A DNA stretch of 64,000 nucleotides. Source: Muricea muricata (Eukaryota > Cnidaria > Anthozoa > Malacalcyonacea > Plexauridae). Both the position numbers and the translations under genes were made by a program. Of this stretch, positions 16,611 through 40,746 are shown piece by piece; the first letter of the stretch is position 1; every line of letters begins with the position of its first letter. A model generated the notes under the pieces. That model saw nothing but the letters and a program-made list of their open reading frames with translations. It ran no database searches and had not been told where the DNA came from. Where the stretch lies: contig OY979716.1 of assembly GCA_963855995.1 (NCBI GenBank), positions 88,809,042 through 88,873,041 of the forward strand. Direction: 5' to 3'.

Positions 16611-17949
16611 ATGTCAGAACATAACAGTATAAATTTTACGGTTGAGCAATACAAAGTGTTTTCTTTGTATTTGAGTGGGTTCAGCTTTTTGACCGGTCAA
16701 GGAGGAACTGGGAAGTCATTTGTCTTGAAACAAATCATTCAGCACGGACGAATAAAATTTGGAAACGACGAAGTGGCTGTTACTGCTCCTACAGGTATAG
16801 CAGCAGACAACATAAGTGGCCAAACTGTTCAATCTTGGGCAGGCATTGGGCTTGGAAAAGATATCAGATATCAATTACTTGATAAAGTTTTGGCTAACGA
16901 ACAATCTGTGACTCGTTAAAAGAAATGTCAGCTGCTTATCGTCGACGAAATGTCCTTGCTAGAGTTGAGCTTGTTTGAAAAACTAGAATTCATCGCAAGA
17001 CGGTCGAGACAAAAAGATTCCGTATTTGGTGGAATTCAAGTGATCTTTTCTGGGGATTTTTTTCAAATTCCACCAGTTACCGAATACGGACATGGCATGC
17101 AGTTTTGTTTTCAGTCACCTGTGTGGGCGAAATGTTTGGATTATTCAGTTGAGATTTGAGAGGTGGTCAGGCAGTCGGATCCGATATTCGTAGCGTTTTT
17201 GAACGAAATTCGACAAGGAGGTGCTCTATCATCATCAGTGACGAGCCTGCTCAACCAGTTAACGCGGCCAATCGAATGGTTGGAGAGTGAGCAATGTGTG
17301 AAGCTGTTTCCGACTCCGACTTTCCGGAGATGAAAACAATAAAATTTTAAGTTTGCTACCCGGGGAAAATCGTGTTTTCAAAGCAGTAGACGGAGGGCAA
17401 TCGAAATACAATATCAACAAGAAATGTCCAACACCAAAAACACTCTTGCTTAAAGAAGGTGCGCCTGTTATGCTACTCATCAACTACCCAAAGGCCGAAC
17501 TGGTAAATGGTTCAATAGGAGTCGCCCAAGGTTTTGTTAACAACTACCCACATGTACGTTTTAGGAATGGACGTTCATTAATCGTGCGTGAAAACACCTG
17601 GACAGTGGATGTCGGGCAAGGTAAAATGGCAACACGACGACAGTTACCAATTGCAATTATTTTAGGCTGGGCAATTACAATCCATAAGTGCCAGGGTCTT
17701 ACTCTTGAAAAAGCCGAGATAAGTCTGTCGAAGTTATTTGTTCAAGGCCAGGCCTATGTCGCTTTGTCTCGTATGAAGTCTTTGAATGGTATTCAAATTC
17801 TGCCTGGGTTTGACACAAAAATACCAGAAGTAAGTATGCACGTGCTTCAAATGTACGACAAATGTGTTGTTCCTTTGAGCACCGTGAACTGTTCCGATTT
17901 GAAGCCCGTTCGAATGATCATGACACGAGATGAACAGATATTAAATTAA
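16611..17949 (+). pseudogene. PIF1-like DNA helicase, intronless, with two stops and a frameshift
   Basis: PIF1 helicases are 5'-to-3' SF1 helicases. From ATG 16611: Walker A GQGGTGKS (about residue 33), motif Ia TAPTGIAADN, then a TAA at 16917. In the same frame follow Walker B LLIVDEMSLLE and motif III FSGDFFQIPPV, then TGA at 17157 and about 40 more codons. A frameshift near 17315 moves reading to 17353-17949, with GAPVMLLINY, motif V AITIHKCQGLTLE and motif VI YVALSRMKSL. All helicase motifs are present, but no Rep/HUH domain is seen on either side, so this is not evidently a Helitron. The gene lacks introns and sits beside a dispersed repeat, which suggests a retrocopied or mobile-element helicase. 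A LINE tail begins at its 3' end. Confidence 0.85.
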
Positions 17950-18132: not shown

Positions 18133-19698
18133 TTAAAAAGCATCCCATTTCTTTACACAATATGGCAGACAACTATCACTAAAACGTTTGGTATGACATT
18201 TGAAGAGTGGAATGGTCCGTGCATGTCTAAAGTTGTGCTGATGGTAAGTTGGATGAGGCAATAACTCCGACAGTTTACTTGACGTATCACATAAATTCTT
18301 TTTATAAAAACGCATGCACAACAATTCTCTCCTTTCGGTAAGTGTGGGCAACTTTAACATACTCAGGCTCTCCTGATATGACATATTTGGCAAGATAATT
18401 CTCAGCGCACGTTTTTGAATATGCTCAATTTGGTCGCTGAGTAAAATCGGTAAGGAAGAGTGCCATACCGGGCACGCGTATTCAAGAATAGGACGAACAA
18501 AGCTACAATAAACCCTCTGAAGATCACGAGATTGTACGCCATTACGTTTAAGCAGCCTGAGCGCATATAAACGTTTGCTTGCTTTGGAACAAATATGGGT
18601 GACGTGCTTCGTCCATTTAAGATCGGATGTCAGGTATACACCTAGTAGTTTTGTAGTTTGAACCATCTCAAGGTACTGATTATCAATCATCAATGGCTGG
18701 AGTGATGGTTGGTTTTTTAAAAATGATACAATAAATTCTTTCGTTTTTTTAACATTTAAATTCATATTGTTCGCAATTGACCATTGGTTAACCCTATCTA
18801 CCTCAGTCTGTAAGGTTGATAAATTCAATTCGCCGACTCTAACAACCTCTGACAAAGCGCTGTCATCCACATATTTATATAAGGGTACCTGGCTAACCAA
18901 ATCATTCACCATTATCAGGAAAAATAAGGGTCCAAGTTTGGTTCCTTGTGGTACACCAGCATTTATAGTTCTCCAGTTCGAAGTACAACTCTGTAATTTA
19001 ACACGTTGTTGACGTTGTCGAAGAAAACTAGCACACCAATTCAAAAGCACGGGTGGAACATTAAGTAACCTTAATTTATCAATCAAAATGTTATGATCAA
19101 TTCGGTCAAACGCTTTCGAAAAGTCTCTCATGCACGTCCGAATAAAAGTGTTAGGTTCCTCAAGAGCAGATAACCAATTATGAAGGAGATGAACGAGGGC
19201 ATGCGTTGTTGATGATCTTTTGACGCTTCCAAATTGATAAGGATCGATATGAGGCATTACTATGCGTGCAATCCAATTAAAAACAAAGCCTTCGAGAACT
19301 TTGCTTATCACAGGTGTCAAGGATATAGGTCTAAGGTCGGAGTCAATAGACTGTGGTTGGGAAGTCTTCGCAAGTGGCAGGACTTCCGCACTCTTCCAAA
19401 GCTTAGGGACATGGCCTTCTCTAATGGAAGAATTAAAAATGGAACAGACAGGATTGGAAATGATTGATGCGCAATCTTTTAAAACCCAATTTGGGATTTT
19501 ATCAGGTCCCACTGATTTGCGTTCATTAATAACAGATAGAGCAAGTTCTACAGCTTTTGAAGAAATAATGTACTCATCAGGGACATCTATCACCGGGATA
19601 GGGGTATAAGCTAAAGGTGATAAATCATCAGTGACACGGCTGAAGGATTCACTTATCAACTCCGCAAGATCAACGTCCCTTAGTATTGTATCATTCAC
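18133..19698 (-). CDS. LINE reverse transcriptase (L2/CR1-like)
   Basis: 521 codons open without a stop. RT landmarks in order: LRPISLTPVISKVLEGF, FRDFSKAFDRIDHNIL-type palm motif (here MRDFSKAFDRID), GVPQGTKLGPLFFLIMVNDL, the catalytic YVDDSALSE, NVKKTKEFIVSF, and KLLGVYLTSDLKW, followed by a thumb and cysteine-containing C-terminus (ILEYACPVWHSSL, HIQKRALRIILP). The frame continues upstream past a TAG at about 19731, so the real protein begins at the endonuclease. RT itself looks intact, implying a fairly recent insertion. Confidence 0.88.
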   Translation of the reverse strand: MNDTILRDVDLAELISESFSRVTDDLSPLAYTPIPVIDVPDEYIISSKAVELALSVINERKSVGPDKIPNWVLKDCASIISNPVCSIFNSSIREGHVPKLWKSAEVLPLAKTSQPQSIDSDLRPISLTPVISKVLEGFVFNWIARIVMPHIDPYQFGSVKRSSTTHALVHLLHNWLSALEEPNTFIRTCMRDFSKAFDRIDHNILIDKLRLLNVPPVLLNWCASFLRQRQQRVKLQSCTSNWRTINAGVPQGTKLGPLFFLIMVNDLVSQVPLYKYVDDSALSEVVRVGELNLSTLQTEVDRVNQWSIANNMNLNVKKTKEFIVSFLKNQPSLQPLMIDNQYLEMVQTTKLLGVYLTSDLKWTKHVTHICSKASKRLYALRLLKRNGVQSRDLQRVYCSFVRPILEYACPVWHSSLPILLSDQIEHIQKRALRIILPNMSYQESLSMLKLPTLTERRELLCMRFYKKNLCDTSSKLSELLPHPTYHQHNFRHARTIPLFKCHTKRFSDSCLPYCVKKWDAF

Positions 19699-20084
19699 TG
19701 TGATGCTTGTTATAGGTGGTGTTTTCGTTTAGCCAGAAAGCATTTTGATACCATCCCACCACTTGTGGGGATCTGTGTCGTGTGTATGGCTGATTTTATC
19801 AGCAGAAAATCGATGTCTCGCCTTTTTACAAAGTTTTATCACCTTATTACGGTATACTTTGTAATTTTGCGAATCCTTTTTCACCCAAGCTTGCTGGCGC
19901 TTTTTGATGTTGTCTTAAATGAGGGGAGTGATCCACGGTTTGTCATTGGGGTGTTTTTTGACTGAAACGATAGGGAGATAGAATTCGATCGCATCATCAA
20001 TTACGGTCTGGAAAGCTTCTTGCTGGTGCTCACACGAATTTAACCGCATAATGGGTGTCCAATTAAAGTTTTCTAAGGCGACAA

Positions 20085-20936
20085 TCAAATGTTTCTTATT
20101 GGATGCTCTACTATCACGTTTATGAAATCGCATTGTTGGTAAACTTGGGGTTTTCCCGTAGGTTGGAGAAGGACACTAGAATGATCAGATGATGCAACAG
20201 GCGGTAGAATGATAGATTCATAATACGGTAGTAGGGTTGAAAACGCTTGATCCAAGGTATTATTTCCCCTAGTAGGCTTTGTCACAAGTTTCTTAAGTTT
20301 AAACGAGGAGCACAAATTAGCTGGTTTAAATTGGTTAAAGTCCCCAAGAAGCATAATCGCAGAATTCGGGTAAGTAGCAAGAAGAGAATCAAGGGAGTTA
20401 AAAATATGTGAGCGAAGGATACGATCGTCGCTTTGAGGAGCGTGATAGACAGTTCCCAATACAATAGAATTGATTCCTCTTGGTAGACGGTCCGTTTTTA
20501 TTAGGAACCATTGAGTTTCAATCTCAGGCTCACACAGGTCGCCTAATTCAATAACGTTAAGTCGTGAACTTATATACGTGCAAAGGCCTCCTCCTCGTTG
20601 ATTATTAGATCTATCTTTTCGATAAGTCACGTATCCAGGAATGCGGATGAGTTCATCGCTTATCTGTGAACAAAGCCATGACTCGGTTATTACCACGATT
20701 TCAAAGGAGTTTGCAGAAACAATTGCAAAAAGTTCATCTAATTTGTTGACCATTGACCTAAGATTACTAAAAAAAATCTTTGGAAAGTTCGGCTTTGTGA
20801 CTGGTTTTCGCAAAGGGATGAGTAAACGATGATTCGGGGCTCTTTGTCGATATGGTACCCTAAATAGATGGGAATACTCAACATGAACAAGCAACTCCTT
20901 CCAAAGCAATGAATGACTAGAAACATGTTCTTCCAC
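20085..20936 (-). CDS. LINE AP-type endonuclease domain
   Basis: Endonuclease/exonuclease/phosphatase fold that nicks target DNA for target-primed reverse transcription. Motifs: FSNLRSMVNKLDEL, VITESWLCSQISDELIRIPG, RGGGLCTYI, VYHAPQSD, LLGDFNQF, KPTRGNNTLDQAF and the active-site SDHSSVLL. The frame departs from homology after about residue 268, where a frameshift near 20120 moves reading into the linker to the RT. Confidence 0.85.
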   Translation of the reverse strand: MEEHVSSHSLLWKELLVHVEYSHLFRVPYRQRAPNHRLLIPLRKPVTKPNFPKIFFSNLRSMVNKLDELFAIVSANSFEIVVITESWLCSQISDELIRIPGYVTYRKDRSNNQRGGGLCTYISSRLNVIELGDLCEPEIETQWFLIKTDRLPRGINSIVLGTVYHAPQSDDRILRSHIFNSLDSLLATYPNSAIMLLGDFNQFKPANLCSSFKLKKLVTKPTRGNNTLDQAFSTLLPYYESIILPPVASSDHSSVLLQPTGKPQVYQQCDFINVIVEHPIRNI

Positions 20937-20959
20937 TCCCAGCAGAAGTTAGCCTTAAA

Positions 20960-23389: not shown

Positions 23390-25039
23390 CATACTGCGAC
23401 TCTGTTGGGTTATTGTTTTGCCCATTTTGAGCCCTTTGCCTGCCAAAGAACTGTTCGAGATTATCCTGATTGGTTCGGTTAGTTTTGACTTCACAACCAG
23501 GGAACAGGTGAAATAACACTTCACAGTATTTTTGAAACCCAAATACCATGGAACGTATGCCAAAATGAAGCTTTTTCGATATAAACATTTTTTCCAGTTG
23601 TTTAGCCTGAATTTCTTTGCTCTTTTTTTGTGACACTCATCTTTCCCACTCATCAAACCAAGACACACATGCAAGATTCTCCGAAAACCTGGAATCATCT
23701 AATGACCTAGAAGTGGTGGAAGATAATTACATGTAATTATTCTTAAATGTAATAAAACACCCCCTATTAGGAACGTTATAAAAGGCAAATACCCACCCAC
23801 ACTGGGAGGGGGGGGGCACGATTGATTTGCTTGTTGACTATTAGAATCTAAATGCATTACACCACAATGCTGGTGTTTGTGATTCAGTTACTTCAGACAT
23901 GTTTACAGGAAATGTCTATTAGGTTTCTTACCTGTAAGGGGCCTTGCTTTTGAAATTCTTGAGTAGTGTGTATGTGATTTTCAGTAGCTAGTTCAATTGT
24001 CTTGTCGAAACATGTCATGGTTTCTTCGCCTTTTTTGGTGACATGTTCTTTGTAGACCTATGGAATAAAATTAAAAGTTGATTATGAATACTGTATTAAA
24101 TTTAGGCAAATCAAAGAACTCGAAATTTGGAGCAACTATTCGGCAATTATTCTTGACTTGCAACCAATCTCTTGGGACACACCTGACAATGCTTCTTGCC
24201 CACTTTGGTTGGTGCTCACAATAGAACTAATAAAATATTCTTTTGTGCTTCACCACCAATAAAATAATATTTGTATGTTTTTATTATATTCGTACATCAT
24301 GACGTATTGGATAAAAAATACCAAGCATCTATCATATCACGTGATGGTATGTTGTTTTTACCTGCATGAGCTCCAGCATTTCTGTCCCCAGAACATCATC
24401 AGCAAGATGGTTTCGCATTCAACTCGCCGAATTCAGAAAAAAGTGATCATCTGTTAATTTCTGGAATGTGCTTATGGATTTATTATGTTTGTCGTATGTG
24501 TCCACCCATTGCTCCCCGACTATCTCCTCTTCATAAATAAAATGATGCGGTGTTTTGCCTCCTGAACTGCTCTTCTCAACATTATTTCTGATCTTTTTGA
24601 AATTGTGCTGTCAAAGAAATCAATATTTCAGAGCAATGTTAAATTTGAAATTAGTTTACTGGTAAATATTTATTTACTTCACAAGTCTGCATTCTTTAGT
24701 TTTAACCCTTTCTTTGTAATCTCGATTATTCGATCATTTTATTTATATTCAAAAATGATATCTCAGTTCCCCTGGATACGAGGAGAATCTCACTGCTTGC
24801 AACTATCGCATTCTTGGTTATTTATTGGTGCATAATATATTGATAATTGAAATAACTTACTGAAAAATCCATCATGAAAGAGTGTGGGTGACCACTATAA
24901 GGATTTGTTGTTGTGAATGAAGAAGAAACGGCATGCTTTTCATCTTGAAAGTGCATAGCAATAAATGCTCGGTTTGCCTGTGCTCCATCGCAAATTGCCA
25001 TATGAACATAAAAGCTCATTTGTTGTAATGCATAAATTA
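23390..25039 (-). pseudogene. THAP9-like transposase gene, 3' part (after the 8.5-kb insertion)
   Basis: Exons read leftward with good splice sites. 25039-24861 continues the split exon and has MSFYVHMAICDGAQANRAFI and ends MMDFS/GTAAGT. 24607-24362 has HNFKKIRNNVEKSSSGGK, a TGA, then MRNHLADDVLGTEMLELMQ. 24057-23932 encodes a linker (VYKEHVTKKGEETMTCFDKT). 23706-23390 has SLDDSRFSENLACVSWFDEW, a TGA, LHFGIRSMVFGFQKYCEV and the conserved KTNRTNQDNLEQFFGRQRAQ and NNNPTESQYG. These are the RNase H-fold insertion and downstream conserved regions of P/THAP9-like transposases. Two in-frame stops make it inactive. The terminal exons expected next are missing here but exist in opposite orientation at 21.4-23.1 kb. 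Confidence 0.7.
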
Positions 25040-25609
25040 GGGACCGTTCATTATTTATTAGGGAGGGGGGATGGGTTATTTTTAAATTTTTTATTTTTTC
25101 CCTCTCTTACCCACTAATGATCATCCCAAAAACTTCAGGTCCCCGCTTTAGATAGCAACAAATTTTCGAGACCCCCCCCCCTCGAGAAATAATTATGAAA
25201 TTTTAAATAAACAGTACCTTAAATGGTTTGTTCTAATCAGGGGCGGATCCAGACCGATGCAACCGATGCGAATGCATCGGTCAGAATTTCACGTTCATTT
25301 AATACCTCCAAGTCAAGTTTCAATAAAAACTCCAAAAAATAACAATATAAACATTTTAATCTCAAACGTGTGCGCGTAGGGCCTATTGTGGTATTTCAAT
25401 CAATAATTTTATCGATAAAAACAATGATTTCAAATGAGGAGAATTTTGATAGCCATTTTGCGTGTTTTTTATTTATCGTCTTTTTATCGATATATATAGC
25501 GAATATTATAGCGTCAGGTTGTTGTCAAAAATGTCTGGACATCATTGTGCTTACTTTGCATTTTTGAGTAAGCACATGGCTAGGGTAGATTGCAGAGGGT
25601 AGGTTACTT

Positions 25610-25890
25610 CGCACCGATGCATGCATCGGTCATACGAGACGGTACCGCGCGATTCTATTGTTTGAAGGGTAGATTGTCCCGACTGACCGATGCATCGAGA
25701 CAGTACCGCGCGATGCCTATTGTTTGAGGGTAGATTGTGTCTCGACTGACCGATGCATCGAGACAGTACCGCGCGATGCCTATTGTTTGAGGGTAGATTG
25801 TGTCTCCACTGACCGATGCATCGAGACAGTACCGCATGATTCTTATTGTTTGAAGGGTAGATTGTCTCAACTGACCGATGCAACGGGCAT
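25610..25890. repeat. 62-bp minisatellite inside the hAT-like element
   Basis: About four and a half tandem copies of a unit with GACTGACCGATGCATCGAGA, CAGTACCGCGCGATGCC and TATTGTTTGAGGGTAGATTG. First and last copies are partial. The GACCGATGCATCG core matches the element's subterminal repeats. Confidence 0.9.
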
Positions 25891-25929
25891 CGGTGACCGA
25901 TGCAAATTACTAGTTATTAATGTTTCGAT

Positions 25930-27000
25930 TTACCGTGGAAGTATAAATTCGAGCGTTTCCCGCAACTGCACGAAGGTTTTCTCCAAGGCATGGCGTTTGA
26001 CGCGACTATGCAAATTATTGTGATCTCTCGACCTTACTACGAGAAGGAACGCAAAACCTTGGAATCCGTTCGCAAAGGGCAGGAAGGGGAGAGATCTTGC
26101 TTTGAAATTGTTGATTCCTAAACAACTTACGAACGCAAGTGGCGAATTGAGAGCTCTATAGTAAGTATCATTCATTTTATATGAAAGGTTCTGCTGTGCT
26201 AGTTATATTTTAATGTGCTAGGCTTTATATTCAGTATTGTGAGATTAAATTTCTGCTATTTAAATTGATGGACATTGTATAAAGTAGGTATATTGATGAA
26301 ATACTATAATAATACTAATGTATAAATAGCAATATTGGGTAAGTTGCATAGGAGGTGGAGGGCATTGGAGACCTGGGAGTACCTTACAAGCAAGAATCCT
26401 TATTATTAACCTTTTGCAGTTGTCTTATTTACTTCTTTTGGCCAAGATATTTATGTATTGTAGATGATAATGGGATGAGTGGTCTATGGTAGTGGGGTGG
26501 GGTGGAGGGGGTAGTCCTAATTCTTGATAATTTGTTATATTTAACCATTGACTAGTACTTTCATCAAATTTGCACAGCTTGAAATTTAACACAATTATTA
26601 TATTTATCTTTCACACATATAATGATTGCTGTAATAGCACTTGTGGTGATGGCAATTGTCTCTATAGAGGCTGCTCAAAATTATTATGTGGCAAGGAAGA
26701 TTTGTGTTACTTCCTGAGAGGCTTTACTAGCATTGGACCTTATTGCCACTAAGAGTTTTATCATTCAATGCTTTACATCCATATGTGTGAAAAAATACAC
26801 ATATATTTTGGTGTGAGAATACTGCATTCTCTGTGACTTAGTTGGATAGTGTATTAGGTGATGGGTAGCTACATCACACAACATGTGATGTGTCAATTTG
26901 TAAGGGGGTAATCTATATACACACAAGCTTTAGTTTATTATACTTGTTTGTGTTCATGATTAATAATTGATTGCTAATTAAACTTACATACACACTAGAT
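25930..27000. other. Interior of the hAT-like element, no gene supported
   Basis: Short frames occur on both strands (such as 26175-25930 minus) without conserved motifs. The sequence is AT-rich with GGGTGGGG-type stretches near 26495. Confidence 0.5.
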
Positions 27001-27019
27001 ATCTTTTTTTTGTTTGTTT

Positions 27020-27585
27020 ATTTTTTGGCCTTCCGATCTCATACACTTACAATGAGTCACTCACAACTAGCCGGCATGCTATATAATATTTCATATTCTA
27101 TATTTACTGCCTCATTAGGAACAAAGGGACTGTTGTTACTAAATATTTTTTGTGTTTGCATGACACCAACATGGTCCCTATTACCTATTTGAATATTTAC
27201 ATTACTAAATAATGTTTTTTACCTTCCCTATCTCATACATTTACAAGTCATTCAGACTCAGCTTTCATGCTATATCATACTTCATATTGCAGTTACTGCC
27301 TCATTACAAACATAGGGACTGTTGTTTCAAAATATTGTCTGTTCTACATGATACAAATATGCTTCCTATTACCTACTTGAGTATTTCCATTACTAGATAT
27401 TGTTTTTTACCTTCCCTATCTCATAGATTTACACTAAGTCAGTCAGGCCTGACCCGCACGCTATATAATATTTCATATTACATGGAGGCTGCCTCATTAT
27501 GAACAAAGTGGCTGTTGTTACAAAATATTGTTTTATTTTGCTAGACACTAATATGGTTTTTATTACCTATTACTAAATACTAAAT
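27020..27585. repeat. Three tandem copies of a roughly 190-bp unit
   Basis: Units share CCTTCCCTATCTCATA, TTTACA, GCTATATAATATTTCATATT, ACTGCCTCATTA and GGGACTGTTGTT, at about 27030, 27222 and 27410. Divergence is about 20 percent, indicating an old amplification. Non-coding. Confidence 0.75.
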
Positions 27586-27946
27586 ATTCATGCCGAAAAC
27601 TGTGAGTATATTATATCTTTCAATGCGCGTTAGGTTATAAGCATTACAAAAATTTTAATTTTCTATCTTTTATAAGTTTTAATGAGATTTATGAATGCAT
27701 CTGAAAATCAGAAGTATTTATAAAAATTCTTCATTTTTAAGCATTGTTTTGGGTTAAATATTGCTCTAAAAATTCAGGAAATCACATTTCCCAGGCTCCA
27801 TATTACAAAATTTTCCCGGGGGAGGAACCCCCCGGACCCCCCTAATTGTCTCGCGCCTCCGGCGCTCGGCGTCGCGCCAATTGTTAATTGAATTTCCGGT
27901 TGATGCATCGGTCAGAAATTTGCCTAGATCCGCCCCTGGTTCTAAT

Positions 27947-30911
27947 TATATTTTAAAAATGCATTTCTCCAAGACGCCGCAACTCTGCCGCTTCGAGTTG
28001 TCGTTAGAAGCATTTCACCATCGGACGATGAGAAATCTCCTCCTGAGCTTTGTACTTCTACTTCATCTTCAGTGGTTTCTATTTCTCCTCTCACCACCTC
28101 TTCTCCAGAACTCTCACTACTGCTACTCTCTGTGTCGGGCTTTGCAGTTTGTCCTTGTTTTGAAGTGACCAAAGGCAGTGTTTCTACACTTCGGGAAACG
28201 TGACAGATGATACGTTTTACTTTATCTGACTTTCTGCCTGTTTTTGGAAGCTTATGGTAGTTGAGGTATTTGTCTAATTCTAATACTGTCAGTTTCTTTA
28301 GGTTACCATCAATAACAAGTTGTTGCCAGTCATATTTATCATACGGCTTCTCATGCTTTTCTTGTTGATTTACTTTACGTTGGTTGTTACGAATGTGCTC
28401 TCTTCTTTCAATGTCAACAAGGTGTTCGATGGCTTTTTTTATTAGATCTTCTTCAACAGCATAGTTTGATGCAAAATCCTCAATAGCTTCATTGTTTTCC
28501 ATGTTAAGGCTTCCTTCCTTATATAAACGAGCAATCTGGACACGAGGCTGGTAGTCATCGGCAGGTCTTGGTTTACCTTGTAGGTCTGTGAGCGGGGTTT
28601 TCCAAACTGGTAGATAGTGCGGTAAATTTGAATTGTCTGGAATTGGCTGAGGTATCCTGGAAATTGCAGGTCCAGTCCAAGAATGAGATGAGCAGTAGTC
28701 ACACAGAATCCCGTCAAGGTGCTCCAAGCAGCCTTGCTTCACATATTCTGTGAACAATTCCCCACGTCTGTTGTGACTTTTCTGAAACATGCAAATTTTT
28801 TGTATGTAAGCTGAACCTGGAACATTGTTTCTCGAAGCATCAGAGTTACATTTGTGGTAAGACGCTAGGTTTTCTTCATTAAAGAAAAATAAACTGTCGA
28901 TTTTCTGTGAAGTGTATGCTGTGATGTACTCCGATAAGACTGGTGCATCGTCTACTCTCTTTTGAACTTCATGTACAACACTCCAAGCGTTTCCCTCCAT
29001 TCTTGCATATTCATATTCTTCGTATTCTTGTAAAGAAAAATTACCAATTTCTTCAGAAGTCATGCCTTGAAATCTTTTCTCATGTTCCCATTCAATTGTA
29101 CTGCCATCTACAACAGCGTCCCCGATCGCGCTGTTCGTTCTTTCCGCCTCATTCTGTCCACTGTCATCCCTCGATCGATGACATCTTTCATGTAAATCTA
29201 AGCTAAAAAGTCGGGCAAGCTCTGCATCGCGGAAATTCACAGCAAAATTTGATACCCCAACCCCTGGGCCTGCATCTGTAAGTTTCACCCATCTGGGTTT
29301 CACAGGTGGCAGCTTTAGCTCTCTCATAGTAACCTGGATTTGTTTGCTTGATTTCAGTATACAATTATTGATCTCAATAAGATCGTTTGTTGAACTCTCA
29401 GCAGAACCCTCTAAAAAATCCATGATTACTTGCAGTTGATCAAGCAATGTACCAAGCTGTGGCAAGATACGGCTTTTAAATATAGCCATTTCACTTTCTT
29501 TTATAGCTTCTGAAGAAGTTTCAAATTCATCACGAGCATTTGATAAGTGCTCCCAACAATGAGCTGCGCGTCGTTTTTCGTACTGGTTGTGAGGGCATCC
29601 AGGGTGTGAGGTAACATTTGCAAGATCGCCTTTTTCTGACATGTCACAATATTGATAAATGTAATCATTAAACTGTGCACACAACTTTCGGAATTCTTTA
29701 GAATAGGTTGTTGATACCATACATTTGGCTTCGAAAACATCAGGATGATTATGACAAAGCATGACGGTCTCACTAGCCCATACAGAACCAGTACTCGGAA
29801 CAAAAGCTTTTGGTCTTATGATAACAAAGTGATTGTCTTCCTTGTTTGTCAACACTAATTCCTCATTCTCCATTTGTACTTCCTTCGTGAATATTCTATG
29901 TGCAGCTGGGGTGACGTAGACCAACTTTTCCGGCCAGTCATACTTTGGTAGTTTTTTTGCTTTCTCTGCATCAGTGAGGGTAATGATTCTCTCATTTCGT
30001 GTCTTTGACAAGCCCTCGGACGGGCCTGGTCTTATGTAATTCTTATCATCGGCACTGTACAAAATTGCCAGGTCATCTGTTGCATAATGTTCATTTGAAT
30101 CAGTGAAGTACTGCATTCTACTTTCATTTGTCTGGTCGTCATTAGCTACTTCTTTGGAAGGACTCTTCGCAAATAAGGCATACTTAAGGTTTTTTACATC
30201 GCCGCGTTGATATTTTGTGTTTTCATTATCTCGGTCCTCTGCTTTAGGTGGCTTTTTAAAGCAGAATAACCCTTTCCCTTTGTGCTTTTTAGCCTGGATT
30301 GACCTCTTATTCTTCGGTCTACTTCTGTTGTATACAGTAGTATATGACTTTACAAGCTTTCGCCCTCCTCTTTTCAAATTATAATTGACAATGTTGAGGC
30401 AATCTCTGGATTTCACTCTGCGATTTGTGTACATCACTGTGTCTTTCCTTCTGCCATGATATGTGGCTTTGTCCTCGATAGCCTTTGCCAGAAATTCTTC
30501 ATCTTCACTGTCAAGTAGGCACGGTCTTCCCTGGTTTGAAGTGCTCTTCTCTTTACTCTTCTTTCTTCGAAAAGTTCTTGGGCTTTCCTTTTAACTCTCT
30601 GTTTCCACTTCTGATCATTCTTGTTTGAGAGTAATGCTTCAAAAGAAGCTATTGTATTTTTAGTTTTGCATATGTTGTCCTGGATTTTATCTCGACCACT
30701 TCTCCAGGTTTTAGATTTTTTTGTATAAAGAGATTGCAGATCTTCCAATTTCTGTTGTGTATTCTTAAGCTTTTCTTCAAGATGCGAGTGCTCCAGATCT
30801 TCAGCAGCAGTTATAGTGTTTTTCCAATCCTCTGTTGTTTGAATAATTCTATCTGTTGCTCGTTAAATTTCATCTGATTTTATTTCAAGATGATTCAGTT
30901 CAGAACGGGAT
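27947..30911 (-). CDS. Putative transposase: DDE-like core plus SAP domain (last exon)
   Basis: An 831-codon frame (30437-27942, open further upstream to about 30600) encodes the bulk of a large protein. Within the 831 residues: VMYTNRRVK and GKGLFCFKKPPKAE (N-terminal, basic); LYSADDKNYIRPG (about 127-139); a Cys/His region HNHPD...CPHNQ...HCW (229-295); LTDAGPGVGVSN (387-398) followed by HRSRDDSGQNEAERTNSAIG (420-439); an acidic region; CDYC (579-582); and a SAP-type motif LKKLTVLELDKYLNYHKLPK (713-732) with GRKSDKVKRI. I infer a triad D130 or D131, D388, E430 or E432 from the RNase H-fold logic; this is not proven. Upstream in the exon (30911-30600) lie a coiled coil, a TAA at about 30868 and a frame change near 30580. 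The exon starts at acceptor TTTTTTAAG. The last codon overlaps the TSD of the hAT-like element. Confidence 0.7.
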
Positions 30912-31123
30912 CTTAAAAAATGGGGAGAGAAACTAGAATGGTGATGGTTGCATTAACTTATTGTCATTACTGTACATCATTAACATGCTATGAAAAATAT
31001 TATGCACATCTTATATTCAACAAATCATTAAAATTTTAAAAGGTACAAAGCTCATATAGCATAAAATTTGTAAAAATAACTGTTTCTTTGACAGTTCGTG
31101 TGGTGATAATACATTAAAATCAC

Positions 31124-31724
31124 CTGTTAACACCAAGGAGAACACATGCAACCTTTTTATCCCATTCTGAGTCCATTGTTGATAAAATGGAATGCACAGT
31201 TTCTGAATTTAAGTCAAATCTGTTTTTTCTTCCTGTTGGTTGTTCAATTCTTCTAAAATAAAATCAAGTGCTGGTTCCATATTTCCATCAGGTGGTCGTA
31301 GAACGATGTAGGATTTGCCTTAACTTGATAAGCGAATAATAGAGACAAACAAACCAGTATTTGAATTAAGCAGAGTTTCGGTAAACTATCATTCGATAAT
31401 CGTAATTCGATAATCTAATGCATAATCAAATGGTAGAATAGCAGTCGCATATTCTCTACCATCGCGGGCCTGAAACTGTGCAGTAAGCTCGTTGAGGAGT
31501 GCCAAAAGACCACTTATTTTATCTCTTTGCTGTTTAGACTCAGCGATGGCTAGTTTTTGCACAAGTTTCTCACGAAGTTCAGAAGTAGATGACAGAGTTT
31601 GCACGGATACTTTGATGCACTGACTGACACCAAACTTCACACTTGCTCTTAGACTTGAGCGAGCATCATGCGGCCCAGCTTTCTTCTTGCTAGGTTCTCC
31701 ACAATTATTATTATGTCCAGACAT
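31124..31724 (-). CDS. N-terminal exons of the putative DDE/SAP transposase
   Basis: 31724-31389 starts with ATG and encodes MSGHNNNCGEPSKKKAGPHD, an arginine-rich segment and a long helix (LREKLVQKLAIAESKQQRDK). 31318-31124 has an acceptor GTTAAG and a donor AACAG/GTGATT; it encodes GKSYIVLRPPDGNMEPALDF and, in a shifted frame, DLNSETVHSILSTMDSEWDK and KVACVLLGVNR. The shift is near 31235. The exon joins in phase to SRSELNHLEIKSDE at 30911. The first intron is not certain. Transcription starts within about 105 bp of the divergent plus-strand gene. Confidence 0.5.
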
Positions 31725-31828
31725 CTCAGTATGAAATTGAAGGCACTTTCAGTATTATTTTACATCATTCACAAAATTCATTCACAAAATTCATTAAATG
31801 CCACAAAGCTGACACAAACTATTCCACT
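31725..31828. promoter_or_regulatory. Divergent intergenic spacer, likely bidirectional promoter
   Basis: 104 bp between the two ATGs of the divergent genes. It contains a 14-bp tandem duplication (ATTCACAAAATTC twice) and no TATA box at the expected distance. The plus gene has a second in-frame ATG at 31883 inside AAAAATGGCGGAT, a YY1-like context. Confidence 0.4.
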
Positions 31829-33274
31829 ATGGCGAGTTTACTGACCTCATTATATGCAGGCGCATCAGATCAAACAACAAAAATGGCGGATCTTAATGTA
31901 TTATTCATGTTTGAGGAGCAAAATATTGCAACAAAACTGCTCCAAGGGACTTCTTTACCGCTTCTTCATGAACGCTTTTGTCAACTTTTTGGCCATGAAT
32001 GTGGTGCTTTGCAGATATACGATAAAGATTGGAGCGAATGGGTCAATATACCAGAGGACTTCACTCTGACAACAGATCGACTGATACTTAAAGGTGTTGT
32101 ATTTCACAAGAATGTCACGGGGTCGGGGAGTATAGTTCCAAAAAGCAGCAAACAACAAGCAACACTGAAATCAAGCAATGCCTGCCTAGTTGTCAATACA
32201 GATAGACTTATTACAGCAAACCCACCTTACTTTTCTTTACTTATTCCTAATCCACATTCACCAAGACTGAGGTACTATAATGAAATCACCCCGATCCTTT
32301 ACAATGAAACATCAGAAGAATTCGTGAGTGCAGAAAGATGTCAACATTATGTAATTACTCAAAGGAGATGGAGATATGATACTAACAATTTGATTTTTGG
32401 ATTCACATCTTTTACTGATAATATCAATGAGTCAGATGATCACAGTGGACTGAAGCAAAATGTTATTAGATATCAAAGCGTTCCTGGCAACCTCAACAGT
32501 GGTGATGTACATCGTTGTGGTAACACCATTTCAACACTAGAGAAAAAAATCTCAGAAGGTGAGAAAATTAAAACTCAATTGGTAAAAGAAAGGAAAACCT
32601 GTTATTCACTGGACATGAATGTTCTCCCTGGGGGAAACAACACACTACAGTTTATAGAGCAAAAGATTTCTGCTTTAACAGATTCAATACAAAAGTTGAA
32701 GTAACTATCTGGAAAGGCAAATGAAGTTTACAATGTACTATGCAGGAAGTTTGATAAGACATCTGCTGAGAAATCTGAACAAAGAAGAAAGAAACGAAGG
32801 AGAAAAGAACAAAACAAAAAGAAAAGACAAAAACGACAGAGGAACCTTGAGAAACATACCATAAACTTACTGTCAGTTATTTTAATTGAGCCTCCAAGCA
32901 CTTTTTCATTAATGCAAGAACATTTTGAGCCATTTATAACAAAAGACTCTTTAAATCATAGCAACTTGAATTTAGATATCTTAAAACCAAGATTTCATCT
33001 CCAACCCATAAAACAACTTCTTGAAAAAGGGTATGTTAGCAAAGATGCAGAGGAAAGCATGAAGTCTCTCATGTTAAGACTAGTTTCAAAGAAGGAAGAA
33101 AGAGAAAAAAAAAATGGTGAAAAAAAGACGAAAATTAGCAAGAGTAGCACTCACCCTACTTTGCCTTCTTACTTCAATAAGCCAGCTAGAGATACATGCA
33201 AAGATGATGAATATCTGAGTGACCAGGAATGCAGCACTGACTCATCATGGTGTCAGGACAGTAACAATGAATAG
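31829..33274 (+). pseudogene. Second gene of the 8.5-kb element: basic coiled-coil protein
   Basis: Same-frame sequence of about 481 codons with a single TAA at 32702. ATG 31829 is possible; ATG 31883 (MADLNVLFMFEEQN) has the better context. N-terminal residues of about 19-90 include FGHECGALQIYDKDWSEWVN and IPEDFTLTTDRL, which recalls a PB1/ubiquitin-like fold. The middle contains YFSLLIPNPHSPRLRYYNEI and a coiled coil (STLEKKISEGEKIKTQLVKE). After the stop follow a strongly basic run (KRRRKEQNKKKRQKRQRN), FHLQPIKQLLEKGYVSKDAE, and HPTLPSYF (33152-33175), a PIP-box-like motif with H in place of Q. It ends in an acidic tail. Function unknown; a DNA-binding partner of the transposase is plausible. 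Confidence 0.55.
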
Positions 33275-33571
33275 TGTACAAAAAATTAAAAAACGAGCAA
33301 AAGTTGACATTTGTGATTTATGAGAACATGTTATTACATAATAAAGTTTTTTATTGGATAAAGAAGAATTTATTGCATAATGAAGCATTTCTAGTTAGTG
33401 TTACCCACAGACAATTTCCTTTCTCCAAAAAATTCACAAGTTTTATGAAGAAAGAAATTTTTTCAGGTCCCTCCCCATTTATATTTGAAAGAATTGGAGG
33501 CCCCCCATTCTTCTTTCTGAAAAACTTCAGGTCCCCCCATTCTCACACCCATACCCCCCCCCCCCCATCCC
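33275..33571. other. Right subterminal region of the 8.5-kb element
   Basis: Contains a polyadenylation-prone AT stretch, repeats of AGGTCCC(T/C)CCC, a run of about 13 C at 33555-33567, and no gene. Mirrors C-rich sequence at 25145-25190 inside the left end. Confidence 0.6.
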
Positions 33572-33590
33572 ATAAATAATGAACGGTCCC

Positions 33591-36299
33591 TTATATCCCA
33601 GTACATATGAAACAATGTCACAGGATCTACTTGAGCTGCTGGGTAATATGCAACTGGAAATTCAAAACCTTCACACCCAACAGATGTGAATTGTAAGATG
33701 TGTGTGGCCAATTCTGCATTTGTTTCATTACCTACAAAATGTTTGTAGTCATTACTAACATTTGTTTAAAATTATACACTAGATCTTAACCTATTGAGCT
33801 ACAATAGCTCCCAGATGCATGCTACTGTAGCATTTTGCTCATTCAAGGACTTATCATGAAATACATAGGCAACATGCATGTTAATACATTTAATTGTTTT
33901 TTTTTTATAATCTGCCAAAATAATACATTTCAATAAAAAACGACTTCATGGGGGATTTACAATGTGAACTAGCTGTCATCATAGGTTCTTTTAGAAAAAT
34001 GTTGAGTACTCACTTAGGTTACTTACATTTGTGTATAAGTGACTGAATCTTTTCATTTGTCTCCCCAAGATAAACCAAGCCACATAGCTCAAATGTGTCT
34101 CCAGACTTTCTTAGCTGTACATCTCCCTGAAAATTAATATTTTTACAATATGGGTGATTCTGGAAAACGTGGGCATACCTCAATCCCATAGGAAATTGGG
34201 TGTCAACTCCTTACCTCTTCGAATGTCCTCCCTCCCTAGATATGGCCCAGGAGCTTCCTCTGGGGGGAATACATTTTTAATACATGCTTTGTGTAATTAC
34301 AGTTTCTAAAAGTATGTGCAGTACCTGTACAGACATTTCATCAAACATAATGTAGCCATGTCTTCCAGCCACACTTATTTGTTCTTTTTCAGTTTGTGTA
34401 TTCATCCACAGGAGGTGATCCTTACAAATACCATGCTTTTGGACAACTTTGTTTTTTATGTTTCTCAAATATCTGCCTATATAAATACACAGTAAGTTGG
34501 TATTTTAGTATTAAACAATTTTTTATTTCTATATTTTGTTATTCTCACACTTTAATGCATAAACACAGTCATTACCAGATGGTAGTTTTATTAATCTGCT
34601 GTCCCTGAACTCCTCATATCCTTGTTTACTTCTCTGCCACAACCGAAGACAAATTTCAAGAAATCTGAAAACAGAAAACATGTGACAAGCTTATTTGAAT
34701 ATTTACAATAAATATGCACCAACCCCTCAGACTATGTTGCAGATGATCTGACATACAAAAATAATGAACAAAGAGTTTCTAAGCTCACCTTGGATGCCAA
34801 ACTGTTTTTCCTGATTGGAGTACTTCTCTTTGCATTGCCCAATAATACAAATCATTATCATGGGTACCAGAATCATCACACTCTAATTCTTTCATTTCAC
34901 TATCTAACTTCTTAAACATAGCCTGTACATCATCATTGTCAACTGCAGCCAGTTTTAGCATTTGCTTTTCTTCTTCCATCTTCCTTTCAGCATATTTTGC
35001 TCTCCTTTCAGCATTGAATCTTCTTCTCTGTTGATCTTTGTATCTTTCTCTTCATCAGATAACAATTTCCAGTTAACACTGCTAGAGCTAATTGGTTGTT
35101 TATTCTCTTTATCTTGGTTGTCTACTGCAGCCTTTAATTTGTATAATACATTGCATATACTTCTGTTTAATTGGGAGCATGATTGGCATCTGATGGTTTT
35201 GTGATTTGTACCATACATGAGATGTTTGCATGTTGATGACCGCCTGGTTTGCCAAACCTCAGAGCTAGTGTTTGACATTGTTTCTATTTTTCCTTTCAGA
35301 TTACCTCTCTTGTCTAAACATGGCATTGCAATTCTGTCAAATTCTGGGTTGTTGCATCCAGGACATAATGCACTTCTCATGCCAACAGCATTAAGTAATA
35401 TGACCAAGTCTGATTTGTGAACAAGTTTGCTAGGAGGGTCATTAAAGCTTGTGCTTGTGAAGGCTTCGTGATGTAAGGTGGAATTATGAACATTCACTTG
35501 CCATGTGAGATCTTTATGGACAGTAACACATCTTGTTACTTGTATTTCATTTATGAAGTGCTTGTCAGAGTACATAAATTTGAACACTCATCACAAATTT
35601 CAGTCTGAAACCGGTCAATCATGAATAGTTCATTCTTAGTGTGATTTGCAAGCAATGCAATAGTTAAAACATTTGCTGTGTGTTGATGACATGTTGCCAC
35701 TGGTGCAGTATCCTGTACCACTGGTTCAGAGGTTTGGCAAACTAATGAAGCTGAACAATGTGAAGCCTGCTGGAAATTTTGTTGCAATTCCAGGTTCTCA
35801 ATAACTTCCAGATTTGAGTAATATGCTATATTGGTATGTATAGGTATATGTTTTAGCACTTAAAAACCAGAAATTCATTTCAAAAAATATGTACAGTGTA
35901 ATCAATTCAAAAAATAAGTGCAGACAACGATATATTGGTGGCTGTCACATTTCGGTGGACAAATGCTTTCAGACAACGGAAAATCTATAGATTATTTGCT
36001 TTGAGGAGCGTAGCAACTTTAATGAATAATGTAGTCTACCAGCATTGCTCCCACAACGTAACGTGAAAACCATCAAATGCATGCACGCCTTACTCGCTTT
36101 TGATCCATGTTCAGTTCTGACTCTCTTGCTGGATAAATTAGGGAACACATCATGCAGTAACCTTGCGTAGAGAAGTTTTGTAATGGGATTTCTGTTGTAT
36201 CTACCACATGTCTCTAAGTATTGTTGATAAACTGTAACTAGATGGACTCCTTTACTTTTCTCGTTGATTCTGACACACTTACGAGTTATATTGGCATCG
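33591..36299 (-). pseudogene. THAP9-like transposase gene, 5' part (before the 8.5-kb insertion)
   Basis: Exons read leftward. 36299-36078 (acceptor TTTCCAG) encodes VYQQYLETCGRYNRNPITKL, LLHDVFPNLSSKRVRTEHGS, an RFX-like winged-helix pattern. 35858-34789 has a Cys-rich part (SALCPGCNNPEF, CQSCSQLNRSIC), a coiled coil and ends KTVWHPR; frameshifts lie near 35570 and 35045. 34664-34576: LEICLRLWQRSKQGYEEFRD. 34476-34325: GYIMFDEMSVQ, with the first catalytic Asp. 34126-34027: KSGDTFELCGLVYLGETNE. 33731-33591: ELATHILQFTSVGC to the insertion point. Donors and acceptors are canonical throughout. The order and motifs match P/THAP9-like transposases with introns. It continues at 25039. Confidence 0.7.
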
Positions 36300-37257: not shown

Positions 37258-39045
37258 TCAATGTATCTTTTTGGTTTCTGTATGACTCGTACGATTCGGA
37301 GTGTTCTGTACTGATACTTGTGGATTTCCCTGATCAATCACTCTTCTTGTCAATTCTTTCGTTTCTGGAACTGAGTTGTTCTCAGCATCTGCTTCAGGAA
37401 TAGCTTGAAGATGCCTTCTGTTCCTCGTCAACGTCTTCCCATCTGAAGTTCCCACAATATATGATCTTGGTGTAGATCCAAATCCACTGACAACACCAGC
37501 TGGACTCCATTGGTTCTGACCATCATGTTTCACTCGAACAGTTTGACCTGGTTTTAATCCCGACAAAGATCTAACTCCATGCTTTCGATAATAGGCATTA
37601 CTACATCTTCCTTTCATTTTCTTATCTACTTCTCGTACTGTTGAAGAATCCGGCCAAGCTGGCAACAGATTACGGCTCAACGTCGGAACGGTCGTGCGTA
37701 TCTGTCTTCCCATTATCAATTGGCTCGGGCTAACTCCTGTCGCTGGAATTGGAGTTGCTCGATACGCCGTCAACGCCAGAAATGGATCTTTTTGTTTCAA
37801 AATCCTCTTGGCTATCTTGACGGCACTCTCTGCTTCTCCATTCGCCTGCAGGTAATGTGGACTCGATGTAACATGAGCGAACCCGTACTGACCGCTGAAA
37901 GACCTGAATTCCTCCGAGAAAAATGGTGGACCATGTCACTGATTAGGATTTCAGGAATTCCCCATCTTGCAAAGATATTCTTTAACTTAGCTATCACCGT
38001 CCTACAAGTTAAACCGGATACATAAGCAATCTCAAGATAACGGGAATAATAGTCTACTACGACAATATATTTCTTCCCGTCTAATTCAAGTGCATCAACA
38101 GCAACTTTTTGCCAAGGACGCTCCGGCAACGGTGTTGGTCTCAACGGCTCTCTTCTTTGTGATGGTCGATTGACTTGGCAAAAATCACAACGCGAAACTC
38201 TCTCTTTGATGTCCTTGGAAATGCCAGGCCACCAAACGGACGAATTTGCTCGCTCCAAGCATTTTGTCACCCCAAGATGACCGTCATGAATTCTTTGGAG
38301 GATTTCCTCCCTCATAGAAGCAGGTATGACAATCTGGTCACGATAAATTAACTTCCCGTCGACATACGAAAGTTCACCACGATAAAAAAAGAAACTTCGC
38401 ACATTTTCAGGAACCTGCGTCTGATACTTCGTCCAGCCATTTAGAACTAATTTAGTTACTTCCTGAAGCTCTTGGTCTTCACGAGTCGTTTTCTCTATTA
38501 GATGAATCTTCTCTTCCGATGCTGGTCTGCTCGATTCAACTGCGTTCAGAAATACTTGTACTTCGTCATCAAGATTATCGCAACCATTGGTGCTGAAGGG
38601 CAACGGACTTCGAGAAAGAGCATCAGCAAGAACAAGATCTTTCCCAGGAATGTACACAGCGATGACATTGAATCTACGTAAACGCATCAAAAGGCGTTGA
38701 CATCGAATTGGAACTCTGTCCAAGGATTGTTGATTTATCAGTGGTACAAGAGGTTTGTGGTCTGTCGGCAACTCAAATACATGAAGACCAGCCAAATATC
38801 GATAAAACTTCTCACAGGCCCAAACTGCTGCAAGACATTCCTTTTCAATTTGTGCATCATTTTGTTCTGATTGTGCCAACGTTCGAGAGCAAAATGCGAC
38901 AGGCCGAAGGGATTTATCATCTCCTTCTTGAAGCAACATCCCACCAATTCCATAGCTGCTGGCATCAGAACTGACTACCGTTTTGCGGTTAGGGTCATAA
39001 AAGTTAACACAGGAGCAGTAGATATCAGCTGCTTCATTCGCTCGA
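37258..39045 (-). pseudogene. Gypsy RNase H and integrase, frameshifted
   Basis: RNase H: VVSSDASSYGIGGMLLQEGD, the EKECLAAVWACEKFYRYLAG glutamate motif and LPTDHKPL, ending ADALSRSPLP. Integrase: the HHCC zinc domain (IHDGHLGVTKCLERANSSVW, then CDFCQVNRPSQRRE), and the first catalytic Asp in VAVDALELDGKKYIVVVDYY. The second-Asp region (ILISD) is followed by a single-base frameshift at about 37935; the glutamate region and C-terminal chromatin-facing part (LTAYRATPIPATGVSPSQLI, VRVKHDGQNQWSPAGVV) are read in the other frame down to the stop at 37258. A second frame change is near 39000. Confidence 0.85.
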
Positions 39046-39098
39046 AGGCTTCTGCTTGGGGCCAGCCCCAAACCCAGCCAGAACTTATTTTTAACAGA

Positions 39099-39854
39099 TC
39101 ATTGTAATATTGACGAGAGGTCTGGCAGAAACTTCCCCAGATAATCAATCATGCCAAGTAATCTTCGTAATTCGGACACATTACTTGGGGGTGATAACTC
39201 AATAATCGCCCTAACCTTCTCACGATCGGGTTTGATGCCATCCTGGCCCACACGATGACCAAAAAACCCTAAATCTTCTTTACGGAACTCGCATTTTGCT
39301 TTATTCAACTTAAGCCTAGAATATTGGACTGTATCTAGAACCCCGTCCAAACGAGAATCGTGTTCTTCAATCGATTTCCCATAAATTGAAATATCATCCA
39401 TAATAACTTTGGTACCAGGAATTCCCTGAAGAAGATCGGTCATCAGCCTTTGAAAAATTTCAGGGGCAGAAGATATCCCAAACGGAAGTTTTCGAAAACA
39501 AAATCGACCAAAAGGGGTAATGAAGGTCGTTAATTTAGAACTTTCAGTGTGTAACGGAATTTGCCAAAATCCACTGGCTGCATCTAGTTTCGAAAACACT
39601 TTTGATCCCTAAAGTGATGGAGCAATATCATCTAAACTAGGCAAAACGTATCTTTCCCGTTTAACAGCCTCGTTTAGTTTCTTTAAATCAACACAAATTC
39701 TTACTTGACCGTTCTTCTTGGGAACTGGGACTATTGGGGCACACCACTCAGTTGGCTCAGTGGCTTCTTCTATAATCCCCTCTTCTTTCATTCGTTTTAA
39801 TTCAGCTTCGACTAGGGGCAATAGGGGAAATGGTATACGCCTTGGCGTGTTCAC
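39099..39854 (-). pseudogene. Gypsy reverse transcriptase
   Basis: Fingers: EGIIEEATEPTEWCAPIVPV and VRICVDLKKLNEAVKRERYV. A TAG at about 39609 interrupts; the same frame continues FSKLDAASGFWQIPLH, FCFRKLPFGISSAPEIFQRL and the catalytic VIMDDISIYG (Met before the DD pair, where Val or Tyr is more usual), then FFGHRVGQDGIKPDREKV and the connection region. It ends in a stop at 39099 before the RNase H linker. Confidence 0.88.
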
Positions 39855-39900
39855 GCTATAGGGCTTAGCAGTATCTTAACAGGTTCACATTTCAATAACC

Positions 39901-40620
39901 CTATATCTCCAAATACGTTGTGATCAGTGATTTCACGCACCCTCTTAACAGACCCATTTGACATGAATGTTCTCGACCGAGCAAACAGTTTACATTTTCC
40001 CCACGAACAACAAAAATACGAACTGAATAATTCACTGATTTATACGACAAGACTACAGGGATTTCGCCAATACATGTAACTGTTCCCCCAGGACTGCAAA
40101 GGACGGCCGTTGTTAATTGAAGTCGTAGACGTGGTACTAAACTATTGTAAACAGCTTCTGGTATAACTGTTATATATGCTCCAGTGTCTATCTTAAATTT
40201 GGTTAATTTCCCATTCAACTCAAGCTCGACTAGCCAGGGATCTTTTTCCCCGTTACTTGACATTACTGAACCCAAAAAGAATGTTTCGTCCCACTCTTGG
40301 ACGTCATCGTCCAACTTTCTTAAAACTTCACCAACAGCTTTCTTTTGCATAGTTTTAGTTGTACAAACTGCGGCAAAATGCCCTAGTTTAGCACACTTTC
40401 TACATTTCTTACCTCTTGCTGGGCATTGTGACTCTTTAGCATGCTTTCTATTGCACCTACCACACAGCGGTTGTTGTTGTTGTTGTTGTTGTTGTGGTGA
40501 TAGTGAGTGTCTTTTGTTCCAATTCCCGCGGCGGCAATATCGTCGTCGTTGCACTTCATCGATCTGCTTTGTTTGCAATGATTCTTGCTCGGTTGATTGG
40601 CTTTTGACTAACTCCGCTTG
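39901..40620 (-). pseudogene. Gypsy gag C-terminus with zinc knuckles, and protease
   Basis: A polyglutamine run (QQQQQQQQ, from a TTG repeat on the plus strand) precedes two CCHC-type knuckles (CGRCNRKHAKESQC and CRKCAKLGHFAAVC). The retropepsin follows: FKIDTGAYITVIP with the catalytic Asp-Thr-Gly, and LLGREHSCQMG near the end. The frame separates from the RT frame near 39870. Residues upstream of 40621 derive from microsatellite sequence, not from gag. Confidence 0.85.
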
Positions 40621-40628
40621 TCTGGTAA

Positions 40629-40638
40629 GTACATACAC

Positions 40639-40669
<31 letters not shown>

Positions 40670-40672
40670 CTG
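40629..40672. repeat. CATA tetranucleotide microsatellite
   Basis: About ten CATA units with one CACA variation, at the truncated 5' edge of the Gypsy element. Confidence 0.95.
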
Positions 40673-40746
40673 CCAATCCCGAATAGATTGTCCAGGCGAA
40701 ACATACTATAATATATATATATCGATCACGTGGTTACTGTAATATA

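Follow-up and report, generated by a model that had tools for sequence, protein, structure and literature searches.

The window analysed here, a 64,000-nucleotide stretch of the genome of the cnidarian Muricea muricata (contig OY979716.1), carries at positions 25040 to 33590 a two-gene element that is read, with reasonable but not high confidence, as a cut-and-paste DNA transposon with a DDE transposase whose superfamily matches none described in Pfam or the open literature, Academ being compared by description. Because the proteins lack the DDE_Tnp_4 and Myb/SANT signatures of PIF/Harbinger, the target duplications of mariner and KDZ (Kyakuja, Dileera, Zisupton) elements differ, and no description of the element was found in the open literature, a scope that leaves out Repbase Reports and many journals, this DDE cut-and-paste transposon probably represents an undescribed superfamily.

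The boundaries of the element are marked by two identical 19-bp inverted repeats, for which shuffling gives a mean expectation of 0.00, and TTA flanks it on the left and on the right (Table 1). The genome that contains the window (G000, 453 Mb) also holds an element-free locus (L042, G000:C1:69573004-69573209) that matches the joined flanks at 99% identity over 206 bases, the left flank at 96% over 1,523 alignment columns and the right flank at 98% over its first 288 bases. The two flanks overlap in this locus by exactly three bases, a single TTA, so that the target duplication is 3 bp, and the reading frame interrupted by the element is unbroken across the junction. The element therefore entered a coding frame at a TTA, splitting the frame and leaving the TTA in two copies, and the exact ends, the TTA duplication and the in-frame rejoining of the interrupted exon, all claimed in an original prediction made from the letters of the window, are thereby borne out. 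The interrupted frame (24822-25036 and 33594-33765, minus strand), also found in the empty locus, includes the motif SFYVHMAICDGAQANR and resembles a P-like transposase; at this site one transposon seems to sit within another.

The same prediction treated the whole span as one element, of which the ends stand and the single span does not, since another insertion, 2,701 bp long, sits inside and brings the window copy to 8,551 bp, the element proper being about 5.84 kb. This nested insertion is separate and lies outside the transposon proper. A further copy in the genome, L007 (5,873 bp), is uninterrupted at the same site, and another, L006, measures 5,855 bp. With the nested insertion excluded, the window copy differs from L006 at 99 of 5,813 positions and from L007 at 98 of 5,832 (1.7%), and the divergence between L006 and L007 is 0.63% (37/5,852). 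Repeated segments are visible within the nested insertion at about 25600-25910. hAT is ruled out for the element itself, whose duplication is 3 bp, the 8-bp duplication belonging to the nested insertion.

The target preference seen at the window is shared by other copies. In a sample of 17 copies, the one in the window and 16 from fetched loci, with ends accepted at no more than five mismatches, both ends are present in 14, and the TTA duplications that the prediction proposed to look for elsewhere occur as matching TTA/TTA or TAA/TAA flanks in 11 of these 14, eight of the 11 being miniature elements of about 335-423 bp. The right end was not found in L008, L009 and L021 within the 9 kb fetched; for L008, a facing end flanked by TTA lies about 12 kb away. 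Across the genome there are 228 occurrences of the exact 19-base end, preceded by TTA in 114 cases and TAA in 104 (218/228, about 95%); these two trinucleotides make up 4.8% of those in the window, and the reversed-pattern controls return 0 in all three counts. Many of the listed end sites form facing pairs about 350 bp apart and are therefore short non-autonomous copies.

The two divergent genes that had been described from the sequence are both recovered. Gene 1, the candidate transposase, encodes a product of about 1,100-1,200 amino acids in its long relatives, and in L007 its two exons are separated by a GT...AG intron. The 831-residue protein of the original prediction thus stands as a large protein and not as a complete one, as a further exon and continuation across frame breaks extend it towards about 1,100 residues. 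The core of gene 1 is predicted to adopt an RNase H fold with D, D and E (D430, D686 and E730), these acidic residues being conserved in the alignment of relatives, and the fold foreseen earlier is upheld as a predicted model joined to a conserved triad. The anticipated SAP motif likewise reappears as a SAP-like tail: a 51-sequence gene-1 profile matches the Ku70 SAP domain 1jjr with E = 1.9e-4 (best stretch 0.015), and no protein named transposase occurs among the 13 PDB sequences reached by this profile at E <= 5. A PDB sequence search with the gene-1 protein P0001 gives no match at E <= 1. Pfam contains Myb/SANT models and, presumably, models of Zator/ISAzo13 type and for KDZ. No Pfam transposase model matches P0001 at E <= 1 or six of its relatives at E <= 0.1, and none is seen for 29 aligned members at E <= 0.5 (25 of their 29 families listed), where PHD and SAP each match two of the 29; nor do the gene-1 Pfam lists include a KDZ domain.

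Gene 1 has many relatives in public databases. Among 5.8 billion proteins, of which the best 7,996 candidates were scored, at least 118 match at E <= 0.001, with named sources including the cnidarians Nematostella (LOC5510379, for instance), Porites, Pocillopora, Stylophora, Oculina and Paramuricea, the hemichordate Ptychodera, the amphioxus Branchiostoma and the mussel Mytilus. Most of the 118 are unnamed, and the named ones are mostly 'uncharacterized', 'unnamed' or 'hypothetical'. P0062, P0092 and P0083 are entered publicly as TRPA1 channel or as X-element reverse transcriptase, names that point to gene models wrongly annotated or fused. A PHD finger at the C-terminus of P0034 and P0044 may mark a variant that targets chromatin, and the distant relative P0119 (24% identity, 1,274 amino acids) keeps the DDE residues with a different C-terminal part. 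The precomputed labels PF26960 (P0121, P0122) and PF27108 (P0034, P0044) were not reproduced by the Pfam scan, P0044 not being rescanned. Viral relatives are not apparent: scans of IMG/VR with protein and ends give no relative, PHROGs gives none for five proteins at E <= 0.1, Foldseek against viral models gives none at E <= 0.001, and no viral Pfam match exceeds its cut-off in the five scanned reading frames of the element.

Within the same genome, P0001 has at least 72 matches (51 of 151 candidates scored), and nine divergent loci were fetched, five with gene 2 nearby (L032-L036, with L037 an extension of L034) and four more (L038-L041). In the core, gene 1 of L032 shares about 50% identity with P0005; it lies between perfect ends GGGAGTGTTCATTATTTATA flanked by TAA/TAA in an element of 5,700 bp. 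In L033 the identity is about 47%, the ends GGGACCGTTCATTAAATA differ from each other by one mismatch, and TTA/TTA flanks an element of 7,002 bp. Each of these two families, which are about 50% apart, has GGGA..GTTCATTA ends of its own. Single ends, some of them degenerate, adjoin TTA or TAA in L034, L035, L039 and L040. As both ends and a duplication are present in two of the nine loci and one end in four more, the ends travel with gene 1 in divergent families, which answers the concern in the original prediction that the repeats and the genes might not move together. A run of 6-13 G about 20-35 bases from the tip is seen in the window element, L007, L033 and the left ends of L039 and L040, not in L032, and could form an unusual DNA structure or part of the recognition site.

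A different account would make genes 1 and 2 passengers: the ends would belong to some other transposon, a Tourist/Harbinger element for instance, by which the genes were captured. TTA/TAA is the PIF/Harbinger target and PIF/Harbinger is abundant in this genome, and the second half of gene 2 matches the Pfam model hAT-like_RNase-H below threshold (E = 0.099; 13.3 bits, the cut-off being 27), which we take as chance. Capture is nevertheless very improbable, as in both L032 and L033 gene 1 is enclosed by ends specific to its family, its acidic residues are conserved, and no other transposase exceeds its cut-off in the five reading frames scanned.

Gene 2, the basic and coiled-coil-like partner, is transcribed away from gene 1, with start codons at 31722-31724 on the minus strand for gene 1 and at 31829 or 31883 on the plus strand for gene 2, 104 or 158 bases apart. 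Its frame is open in L006 and L007, and from the second ATG it encodes 463 amino acids in L007 (P0125). Its relatives are far fewer than those of gene 1, with four from a sequence search and 12 from a profile search (the four included). Because the longest contigs agree in length, P0122 and P0124 probably form pairs on single contigs with the gene-1 proteins P0004 and P0005, respectively. In the window genome, L033, L034, L035 and L036 have gene-2 matches (25-33% identity) next to gene 1 and opposed to it in direction; for L032 the evidence is one weak match (E = 7.5e-5) not repeated by tblastn. A tail motif resembling a PIP-box (QPTLPSYF and variants) occurs in three of seven scanned gene-2 proteins (P0125, P0123 and P0128), is degraded in P0124 and is absent with the tail in P0126 and P0127, P0121 ending in another frame; the remaining six of the 13 gene-2 rows (P0122, P0129-P0133) have no tail and stand outside the motif scan. 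In the window copy H replaces the first Q, five divergent loci show no such motif in their candidate tails, and 4 of 118 gene-1 homologues also have it as background. The PIP-box is given as Qxx[I/L/M]xxF[F/Y], and the pogo transposase as binding PCNA, in PMC5371812. The gene-2 motif may offer a lead, and a weak one, towards docking on PCNA.

Several observations weigh against the reading of the element as a DDE transposon of its own kind. Three of the 14 two-ended copies have no matching duplication (L010, L016 and L017), and among the divergent loci the lone end of L038 is flanked by CTA/TAG, not TTA, and no ends were recognised in L036 or L041. The ends of L010 are degenerate; L016 and L017 are short copies on different contigs with identical flanking bases, and because of these identical flanks they probably reflect one event in which a copy was duplicated with its surroundings. 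Foldseek returns no match at E <= 0.001 for either model, and in a second comparison with PDB structures Mos1 does not rank above unrelated helical bundles, which cover mainly the insert; the only transposase structures among the 50 PDB matches listed are Mos1 and SETMAR/Metnase, the absence of other families from this list being uninformative. Gene 2 was not found at any of the four further gene-1 loci, L038-L041 (0/4). The pairing whose conservation the original prediction proposed to test is thus seen at L033-L036 and was not found at L038-L041, so that gene 2 is a partner of gene 1 often but not always.

Among the named superfamilies, PIF/Harbinger is the closest in outward form. The element has its TTA/TAA 3-bp duplication and its two genes, although gene 2 was not found in four more divergent loci, and the GG-starting ends and Tourist-like short derivatives of the element are typical of that superfamily. 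PMC4482050 gives PIF/Harbinger a TWA duplication and two open reading frames, and describes terminal inverted repeats usually starting with AG or GG and a second reading frame without known motif for Pangu of the PHIS subgroup. These traits would also fit a PIF/Harbinger (PHIS) lineage so divergent that profiles no longer recognise its transposase and partner, but such an origin is improbable given the proteins. DDE_Tnp_4 does not appear in the complete Pfam results for seven gene-1 proteins or among the 25 of 29 families shown for the 29 members, whereas the model works in this genome, with at least 150 matches over its cut-off (150 of 1,218 candidates scored); Myb/SANT is likewise missing from the Pfam results for gene 2 and for three relatives. 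The transposase also differs in its length of about 1,100 amino acids, its helical insert and its SAP-like tail. The lack of a PIF/Harbinger signature noted originally is thus supported for both genes.

Tc1/mariner elements have one gene and are not known to have an insert of this kind after helix 1 and before strand 4, and Mos1 and SETMAR have no sequence match with gene 1. KDZ and Plavaka elements have large transposases, sometimes with extra domains. Academ elements have 3-4 bp duplications and a large protein with an XPG nuclease, a helicase and a Cys8 finger, and the latter three are absent from the gene-1 Pfam lists, a comparison by description only. The Tc1/mariner duplication is TA in PMC10045372, and this family is ruled out by the TTA/TAA of the element. 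The same paper gives Zator a 3-bp duplication, a likeness to the element. Gene 1 has no Pfam transposase match, and Pfam presumably includes a Zator-type model. In PMC12730594, Zisupton has an 8-bp and Kyakuja a 7-bp duplication with CA..TG ends, and Plavaka a 2-3-bp duplication with TGT..ACA or CATCA..TGATG ends; KDZ is ruled out by its 7-8 bp against the 3 bp found here. It is unlikely, though less so than a hidden PIF/Harbinger origin, that the element is an already known member of Academ, Zator, IS3EU or another Repbase superfamily missed by Pfam. Animal genomes like that of Nematostella have been mined for years, and Academ makes duplications of similar length. Repbase includes Academ among others according to PMC4455052. 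Against this stand the missing Pfam transposase match of gene 1 and the lack of a published description, neither of which bears on Academ directly.

If the element is a DDE transposon as preferred here, the product of gene 1 would act as the transposase and bind the GGGACCGTTCATTA ends, where the triad of acidic residues in the RNase H fold would cut at the GGG/TTA boundary. The 3' ends would be joined to the two strands at a TTA, at positions staggered by 3 nt, and gap filling by host repair would produce the TTA duplication. The SAP domain may help to hold DNA or an AT-rich target and, with the poly-G tracts inside the ends, may aid DNA handling. Gene 2 probably supplies an accessory factor for transposase assembly, nuclear entry or targeting, and the PIP-box-like motif of its closest relatives may serve to dock that factor on PCNA.

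Table 1. Features of the element and of the insertion nested in it (positions in the window).
Feature	Position	Strand	Remark
Left target duplication copy, TTA	25037..25039		Single TTA in empty site L042
Left terminal inverted repeat GGGACCGTTCATTATTTAT, G-rich tract inward	25040..25058	+	228 exact genome copies
Duplication GTTCTAAT (8 bp) around nested insertion	25230-25237, 27939-27946		
Nested hAT-like insertion, ends CAGGGGCGGATC...GATCCGCCCCTG, 2,701 bp	25238..27938		No long reading frame
Gene 1, candidate DDE transposase, two exons	27942..31724	-	Frame-shifted in window copy
SAP-like domain, C-terminal in gene 1	28188..28436	-	Profile match to Ku70 SAP
Catalytic core, modelled RNase H fold	28911..30224	-	Helical insertion between helix 1 and strand 4
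Candidate catalytic residues	D 30048-30050, D 29274-29276, E 29142-29144	-	
Intergenic stretch between divergent start codons, presumed two-way promoter	31725..31828		Putative role
Gene 2, partner, basic coiled-coil-like	31829..33274	+	In-frame stop 32702-32704 in window copy
Right terminal inverted repeat	33572..33590	-	Long minus-strand G tract just inward
Right target duplication copy, TTA	33591..33593		Single TTA in L042

Elsewhere in the window, frames at 456-2201, 17302-17949, 18133-20948 and 37258-40725 resemble by eye RecQ-type helicase, PIF1-like helicase and reverse-transcriptase elements, and the window seems dense in mobile DNA.

The broader proposal, of a new animal superfamily in at least four phyla with a helical insert, a SAP-like domain (PHD in some), a frequent divergently transcribed partner (with a candidate PCNA-docking motif in some families) and a target converged on the TTA/TAA of PIF/Harbinger, is an evenly balanced one. 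Eukaryotic DDE transposons form a limited set of superfamilies, and each addition brings a catalytic architecture and may bring tools and domesticated genes; relatives of gene 1 already sit in databases without a function or under wrong names such as TRPA1. A TTA/TAA target in an element that has no recognisable Harbinger protein would open convergence in target choice to testing, and would caution that short TTA-flanked elements of animals are not all Tourist/Harbinger.

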